DNA of 64,000 bases from a bacterium (GTDB lineage: Bacteria; Deinococcota; Deinococci; Deinococcales; Deinococcaceae), in NCBI GenBank assembly GCA_021810505.1, contig JAJZIR010000013.1, positions 1-64,000 on the forward strand. Reading direction: 5' to 3'. A model generated the notes under the pieces. That model made no database searches and had not been told where the DNA came from. It saw only the letters and a program-made list of their open reading frames with translations. Position numbers and translations under genes: made by a program. This document shows positions 47,692 to 53,108 of this stretch, piece after piece (position 1 is the stretch's first letter; each line of letters opens with the position of its first letter).

Positions 47692-49567
<1,876 letters not shown>

Positions 49568-49571
<4 letters not shown>

Positions 49572-49732
49572 TCGCCCCAGTCCTCGGCTTCCTTGGGGGC
49601 GAGCTCCAAGCGCGGCGGATCCTGGCCCACCACTTCCAACTCCGCCCCGCAGTCTGGGCAGAGAATCAGCTCTCCTAGTTCAGTTCCTTCCATCGCGATC
49701 TTGGCGGCGCACTCCGGGCATTCTGCGTGCAT
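49568..49732 (-). CDS. lysW: Amino-group carrier protein LysW
   Basis: The 54-residue protein has two Cys pairs, C-P-E-C (5-8) and C-P-D-C (25-28), forming a zinc ribbon, and an acidic tail ending in E-D-W-G-E. The C-terminal Glu (residue 54) is the attachment point for 2-aminoadipate. The sequence matches Thermus LysW closely. An AAGGAAGG ribosome site precedes the ATG, and the stop overlaps lysX by 4 bp. It works with lysX, lysY, a LysZ-type kinase, LysJ and LysK. Confidence 0.97.
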
Positions 49733-49747
49733 GCGGATACCTTCCTT

Positions 49748-50107
49748 TCACATCAGGTCGCGCTGGGGACCTGTGTCCCCGCCGGCCTCGCCTTGGTCCT
49801 CTTGGTCTTCATCTGGATCTTCCTGATCCAGCTCCAGCTCTTCTCCACAGTTCGGGCAGCGGACTCGCCCTGCCTCGGCAGCGTCCTCGTCGACGGCCAC
49901 CTCAGCCCCGCAATAAGGGCAGCTCAGGAGTAGGCCCAGCAGCTGGGCCTCGAAGTGGTCGGGATCGGGATCTAAGACTTCCAGTTCGGCGCCGCAAGAC
50001 CCGCAGACCAGGCGGTCTCCCGCTTCCAGGCGGCTCAGGTCTTCTCCGGCTAGCTCGACGTCGTCTCCGCACAGCGGGCACTCGAGGTGGAAGGGTTCGG
50101 CGGACAT
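49748..50107 (-). CDS. Double zinc-ribbon LysW paralogue without carrier tail
   Basis: The 119-residue protein has two LysW-like ribbons. Ribbon 1 holds C-P-L-C and C-G-S-C and ends G-A-E-L-E-V-L-D-P-D-P, as LysW does. Ribbon 2 holds C-P-Y-C and C-P-N-C and ends E-E-L-E-L-D. The tail is very acidic (D-P-D-E-D-Q-E-D) and ends D-L-M, so the E-D-W-G-E terminus and its acceptor Glu are missing. It lies between lysU and lysW. The start is ATG 50107; TAAACT ends 7 nt upstream, suggesting an internal leaderless promoter. Function unknown: scaffold, decoy or regulator of the carrier pathway. Confidence 0.8.
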   Translation of the reverse strand: MSAEPFHLECPLCGDDVELAGEDLSRLEAGDRLVCGSCGAELEVLDPDPDHFEAQLLGLLLSCPYCGAEVAVDEDAAEAGRVRCPNCGEELELDQEDPDEDQEDQGEAGGDTGPQRDLM

Positions 50108-50114
50108 AGACCCC

Positions 50115-50120
50115 AGTTTA
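50115..50120 (-). promoter_or_regulatory. Possible internal -10 element TAAACT in the lysine operon
   Basis: It includes the lysU stop codon and ends 7 nt before the start of the double zinc-ribbon gene; similar to the TAAACT before ebfC. May be fortuitous. Confidence 0.3.
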
Positions 50121-50601
50121 GGCCTCACCGGGGAACTTCTGGTAGCGGCGGTAGTAGGCGAGGATGCTCCCCTCCTTGAGGGCCTCCCGAAGGAATTCCG
50201 GGACTGGGTGGAAATGGAAGATCTCCTCACCTCGCTGCAGCGTGCCGGCTTCCAGGTCGAGCGTGACCTGATCGCCGTCTCGTAGGCTGGCGGCGATCTC
50301 CGGCTCGTCTAGGGCGGGCAGGCCTAAGTTGAGCAGGTTGCGGTAGTGGATGCGGGCGAAGCTGACTGCCACGATGGCGGCGACGCCCAGGCGCTTGAGT
50401 GCCTGCGGAGCGTACTCCCGGCTGGAGCCCAGGCCCCAATTGCGACCGCCGGCCAGGATGTCCCCGGGTCGGACCTGCTCGGCGAATTCCGGCCGCAGGT
50501 GGTGAAAGGCGTAGCGGTGGAAGTCGTCGCCCACCATGAAGGGGGCGTACTTGCCAGGCAGGATGTCATCGGTGTTGATGGCGTCAGGGAACTTCCAGAC
50601 T

Positions 50602-50609
<8 letters not shown>
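50118..50609 (-). CDS. lysU: Homoaconitase small subunit
   Basis: The 163-residue LeuD-like swivel protein has the start A-R-V-W-K-F-P-D-A-I-N-T-D-D-I-L-P-G-K-Y and the conserved G-G-R-N-W-G-L-G-S-S-R-E-Y-A-P loop that reaches the active site. It pairs with LysT to convert homocitrate to homoisocitrate. Overlaps lysT by 8 bp. Isopropylmalate isomerase is excluded mainly by the lysine context. Confidence 0.92.

Positions 50610-53108
<2,499 letters not shown>

Follow-up and report, generated by a model that had tools for sequence, protein, structure and literature searches.

OrfE, a double zinc-ribbon protein resembling LysW, is encoded beside lysW in the lysine operon of most Deinococcota

In the analyzed window (64,000 nucleotides of a Deinococcaceae contig), the interval 49568–50107 of the minus strand was found to comprise two genes, namely, lysW and a gene for an acidic protein with two zinc ribbons, which, judging by its place in the operon and by its Thermus-like orthologs, is the ortholog of T. 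thermophilus TTHA1909. We take TTHA1909 to be the "orfE" of the 1999 work on the T. thermophilus lysine cluster, and this name is used below. In almost the entire phylum, orfE occupies this position, which argues for a genuine accessory protein of lysine synthesis and not for a new system. The genes of the operon, identified gene by gene with NCBIfam or Pfam models, were as follows:

51843..53018, minus strand: hcs, homocitrate synthase (TIGR02146, 481 bits)
50602..51858, minus strand: lysT, homoaconitase large subunit (TIGR01343, 553 bits)
50118..50609, minus strand: lysU, homoaconitase small subunit (NF010629, 263 bits)
50107-49748, minus strand: orfE, acidic protein of 119 aa; two C4 zinc ribbons are followed by an acidic tail that lacks EDWGE
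49732-49568, minus strand: lysW, 54-aa amino-group carrier with four Cys, ending in EDWGE (TIGR01206, 89.8 bits; cut-off 53.2)
48723..49571, minus strand: lysX, alpha-aminoadipate-LysW ligase (TIGR02144, 375.6 bits)
47692..48714, minus strand, start approximate: lysY, argC-type semialdehyde dehydrogenase (LysW-gamma-aminoadipyl phosphate reductase; TIGR01850, 358 bits)

Thus, the gene order was hcs-lysT-lysU-orfE-lysW-lysX-lysY, running from 53018 to 47692 on the minus strand, with gaps of 10 nt between lysU and orfE and 15 nt between orfE and lysW and an overlap of 4 nt between lysW and lysX. Other contigs of this genome encode a LysZ homologue (63% identity) and a LysK-family protein (TIGR01902, 304.8 bits), and the remaining lysine pathway looks to be present.

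The double ribbon with eight Cys in four CxxC pairs (C10/C13, C35/C38, C63/C66, and C84/C87), which the sequence-only reading had described between lysU and lysW, was confirmed. Ribbon 1 ends in CGAELEV, in agreement with the GAELEV end noticed earlier, and ribbon 2 in CGEELEL; the ribbons are connected by a short linker, and an acidic tail follows ribbon 2. The absence of the EDWGE tail was also borne out, since the window protein ends in QRDLM, though in a few relatives the last residues are EEWE or DDWE. OrfE contains 34 Asp/Glu versus 5 Lys/Arg, and its pI is close to that of LysW (4.05 vs. 4.08).

The top Pfam match of OrfE was PF21344, the globular domain of LysW (58.3 bits, cut-off 27), which covered both ribbons and also matched all 14 aligned OrfE orthologs. 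This family is broad and also covers ribbons of unrelated small proteins of Thermus and Meiothermus; therefore, likeness to LysW by itself is no proof of a role in lysine synthesis. With the LysW equivalog model TIGR01206, OrfE scored 37.2 bits, below the cut-off of 53.2. Profile–profile alignment of ribbon 1 with LysW gave a probability of 98.1. The structure model of OrfE (mean pLDDT of 79; confidence is low in the tail) had T. thermophilus LysW as its three top PDB folds (3wwl, 3wwn_B, and 5eio_C; Foldseek probability 1.00), the weak E-values of 0.04–0.07 being due to the small size of the domain. In a single-ribbon tree, based on few columns, ribbon 1 fell on the LysW side and ribbon 2 was separate. 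The earlier description of both ribbons as LysW-like thus held clearly for ribbon 1, according to its profile and predicted fold, while ribbon 2 appears more diverged and only more distantly related. Zinc ribbons often bind nucleic acids, and weak matches of OrfE to other zinc-ribbon families were also obtained; a nucleic-acid-binding regulator of the operon is nevertheless a highly improbable reading of a protein with this excess of acidic residues and this pI, whose best family and fold are those of LysW.

The search for ORFs between lysU and lysW that had been proposed for Deinococcota returned orthologs in 69 genomes. Among the 111 Deinococcota genomes surveyed, LysW was found in 101, and OrfE was present in all 69 LysW-bearing genomes outside the family designated f2; the three other genomes outside f2 contained neither OrfE nor LysW, and two of these assemblies are less than 90% complete. 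In the loci inspected, orfE adjoined lysW and directly followed lysU. The two genes overlap by a few nucleotides at the lysW start in Thermus and in genus g9, and they are separated by 50–140 nt in several other genomes, so tight coupling of orfE and lysW is not general. The window protein shared about 32–40% identity with its relatives. The eight Cys were kept in every OrfE examined; together with two Pro, they were invariant among the 14 aligned orthologs, in which D31, P85, and F91 were nearly invariant. The median dN/dS among Thermus-type orthologs was about 0.10, and by this measure OrfE is under purifying selection. A chance ORF is contradicted by this value, by the eight invariant Cys, and by the 69 genomes with an ortholog at this position. 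Diverged OrfE copies (62–69 bits vs. about 105–129) were observed in one genus of family f3 (g16; L044-L049), where they end in EWE or DWE, near the EDWGE of LysW.

According to published locus tags, Thermus, Meiothermus, and Oceanithermus have two tags between LysU and LysX (PMC3356886), and in Deinococcus the tags leave one gene between lysW and lysU (Dgeo_1153 and Deide_13450; PMC3356886, PMC2669436), which, judged by locus-tag numbers alone, suggests that Deinococcus species do have the gene. Truepera radiovictrix has only one locus tag between LysU (Trad_1390) and LysX (Trad_1392) (PMC3356886). Family f2 is probably Trueperaceae: one of its members (G106) and Truepera sp. bin119 have the same LysW, and the single tag of T. 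radiovictrix agrees with this assignment. In f2, OrfE was found in none of the 39 genomes, though LysW was present in 32; the weak f2 matches compared by place (G004, G058, and G104) coincided with LysW itself, and where lysU was in view, lysU-lysW-lysX were closed up with no orfE. In the LysX tree, f2 stood beside all other families together (support 92/74), a topology that fits both a loss in f2 and a gain in the rest.

Outside the phylum, OrfE was not found. A LysX search yielded 80 loci, most of them from Chloroflexota, archaea, and other phyla; LysW was seen in 73, and OrfE was missing from 78, the exceptions being Meiothermus rufus and Calidithermus chliarophilus, both Thermaceae. When whole genomes were searched for 34 of these loci, full-length OrfE was again confined to the same two species. 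No OrfE was detected in 301 Chloroflexota genomes, a group with no positive control inside it, and a plasmid search found nothing. Since neither f2 nor the other phyla examined have OrfE, the enzymes of the pathway do not need this protein. Its benefit would accordingly be conditional, as Trueperaceae-like genomes and the LysW systems examined outside the phylum run without it. The f2 genomes, having the same operon minus orfE, represent a natural control. They also bear on the doubtful reading of OrfE as a stabilizer or regulator of the homoaconitase LysT/LysU: the position of orfE directly after lysU, with the 10-nt gap in the window, would suit such a partner, but f2 keeps lysT-lysU in the same place without orfE, and the ribbons resemble LysW and no aconitase partner.

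Six genomes (G007, G015, G019, G059, G061, and G068; three of family f5 and three of f4) have an eight-Cys OrfE beside a LysW that has no Cys, which separates OrfE from the zinc of LysW. Of the four roles listed in the sequence-only reading (scaffold, zinc store, decoy, and regulator), the zinc store, taken as a loader of LysW, is the one that these genomes contradict. A metallochaperone or zinc store loading LysW was also considered here, prompted by f2 genomes that lack OrfE and mostly lack the Cys of LysW, and two zinc sites encoded next to the gene of a zinc protein would fit it. It was rejected on the f5 genomes and the three f4 genomes; furthermore, five f2 genomes, as well as loci of Chloroflexota and archaea, have a zinc-type LysW and no OrfE. 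On these comparisons, the loader reading is largely refuted and is very unlikely. Genomes with Cys-free LysW thereby make it possible to tell a zinc role apart from a role in protein binding.

Cys-free LysW, in which all four Cys are lost and LGE, ELEV/EFEV, and EDWGE are retained, was observed in L054-L056, L060, and most of L069-L092 (f2), in L039, L041, and L043 (f5), and in L051, L093, and L096 (f4). It occurs as two sequence types, TPYG...SDDGTELEV (f2) and FENPESGA...DDETGAEFEV (f5 and some f4). The two types suggest that the carrier lost its zinc at least twice or that the gene moved between families. Other LysW-like ribbons were also seen. Thermus-like genomes (L061, L062, L066, and L067) encode, elsewhere in the genome, a protein of about 165 aa whose N-terminal ribbon is close to OrfE ribbon 1 and whose C-terminal domain contains DEPN.EPDY...LLEFTLPSGS.YEF. 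In Meiothermus-like genomes (L063-L065), a LysW-like ribbon of about 60–70 aa that lacks EDWGE stands alone, outside the lysine operon and away from it. Chloroflexus-like loci (L111:5426-5842 and L118:5427-5842) carry lysW twice in tandem just upstream of lysX, and each of the two copies has the EDWGE end.

Taken together, these data lead us to regard OrfE, tentatively and with somewhat less than even confidence, as a dispensable, non-carrier paralogue of LysW that docks on LysW-handling enzymes or on LysW and acts as an adaptor or modulator. The LysW-like acidic surface of OrfE would dock on LysX, LysZ, LysY, possibly LysJ/LysK, or LysW itself, and the protein might tune the LysW-bound steps or keep them together, carrying no substrate itself. 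Counted for this reading were the PF21344 match, the match of ribbon 1, the fold, the presence in 69 of 69 genomes, the adjacency to lysW, the selection, and the acidity; counted against it were the absence from f2 and other phyla, the breadth of PF21344, and the weak Foldseek E-values, as well as the T. thermophilus orfE disruptant, which is said to be prototrophic: in the work of Nishida et al. of 1999, disruption of every gene of the cluster except orfE reportedly caused lysine auxotrophy. If so, the auxotrophy test of orfE proposed earlier has already been done, with a negative result. A gene that is present in all LysW-bearing genomes of four families, adjoins lysW at every locus inspected, and is nevertheless apparently dispensable points to an accessory step missing from the known scheme of lysine synthesis on a carrier protein.

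A sharper version of the docking paralogue is a decoy without the tail, in competition with LysW for its enzymes, that limits flux when lysine is plentiful. A LysW-like ribbon without the acceptor Glu and an acidic C-terminus, ending in EEW, EEWE, or DDWE in a few relatives, would suit a decoy, as would the prototrophy expected of an orfE mutant; however, the aromatic-acidic tail is absent from the window protein and from f5, and we consider a decoy of this kind unlikely. Only slightly less doubtful is the possibility that OrfE mimics a double LysW without the tail and is dedicated to binding the enzymes that handle LysW and to controlling carrier traffic; if true, amino-group-carrier biosynthesis would have its first regulatory protein, retained in most of Deinococcota. 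Many relatives carry an internal PDW[SG][ED] motif; its EDWGE-like forms PDWSE and PDWGD were considered as a pseudo-tail and rejected, as the motif immediately follows ribbon 2 and the window protein has lost it. The Glu that follows Trp at the end of some relatives (EEWE and DDWE) might indicate a second substrate carrier, but the C-terminal residue varies freely (W, L, A, S, N, D, E, or M) and EDWGE is absent from the orthologs examined, which leaves this reading scarcely credible.

With respect to known systems, OrfE is best compared with LysW and with TTHA1909. LysW (TIGR01206; PDB 3wwl, 5k2m, and 3vpb) and OrfE share the C4 ribbon, the CGAELEV and DP motifs, the acidity, and the fold; unlike LysW, OrfE has two ribbons, a longer loop in ribbon 1, and no EDWGE acceptor tail. 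The older PDB name of LysW, OrfF, fits the naming of its neighbor as orfE. In T. thermophilus, the gene order is lysT (TTHA1911), lysU (TTHA1910), TTHA1909, TTHA1908, and lysX (TTHA1907) (PMC7662524, PMC3356886). A transcription-factor study gives TTHA1909 of strain HB8 as the third gene of the lysT-lysU-1909-1908 operon (PMC7662524). The earlier remark that such an arrangement was not known to be characterized is correct only in part: the gene had already appeared in a published operon table, where it is labelled "hypothetical protein" (PMC7662524); a search of the literature on Thermus lysine biosynthesis found nothing relevant for orfE, LysV, or a zinc ribbon. By numbering, the counterpart in HB27 is TTC1545. 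The comparison with TTHA1909 was made through Thermus-like genomes of the same family, in which LysW is nearly identical to 3wwl. The window gene has the two C4 ribbons with eight Cys and the place between lysU and lysW that define this family; it agrees with TTHA1909 in operon place and, as seen in the Thermus-like orthologs, in architecture, and it differs from the Thermus-type orthologs in having neither the PDW[SG][ED] motif nor their Trp-ending tail.
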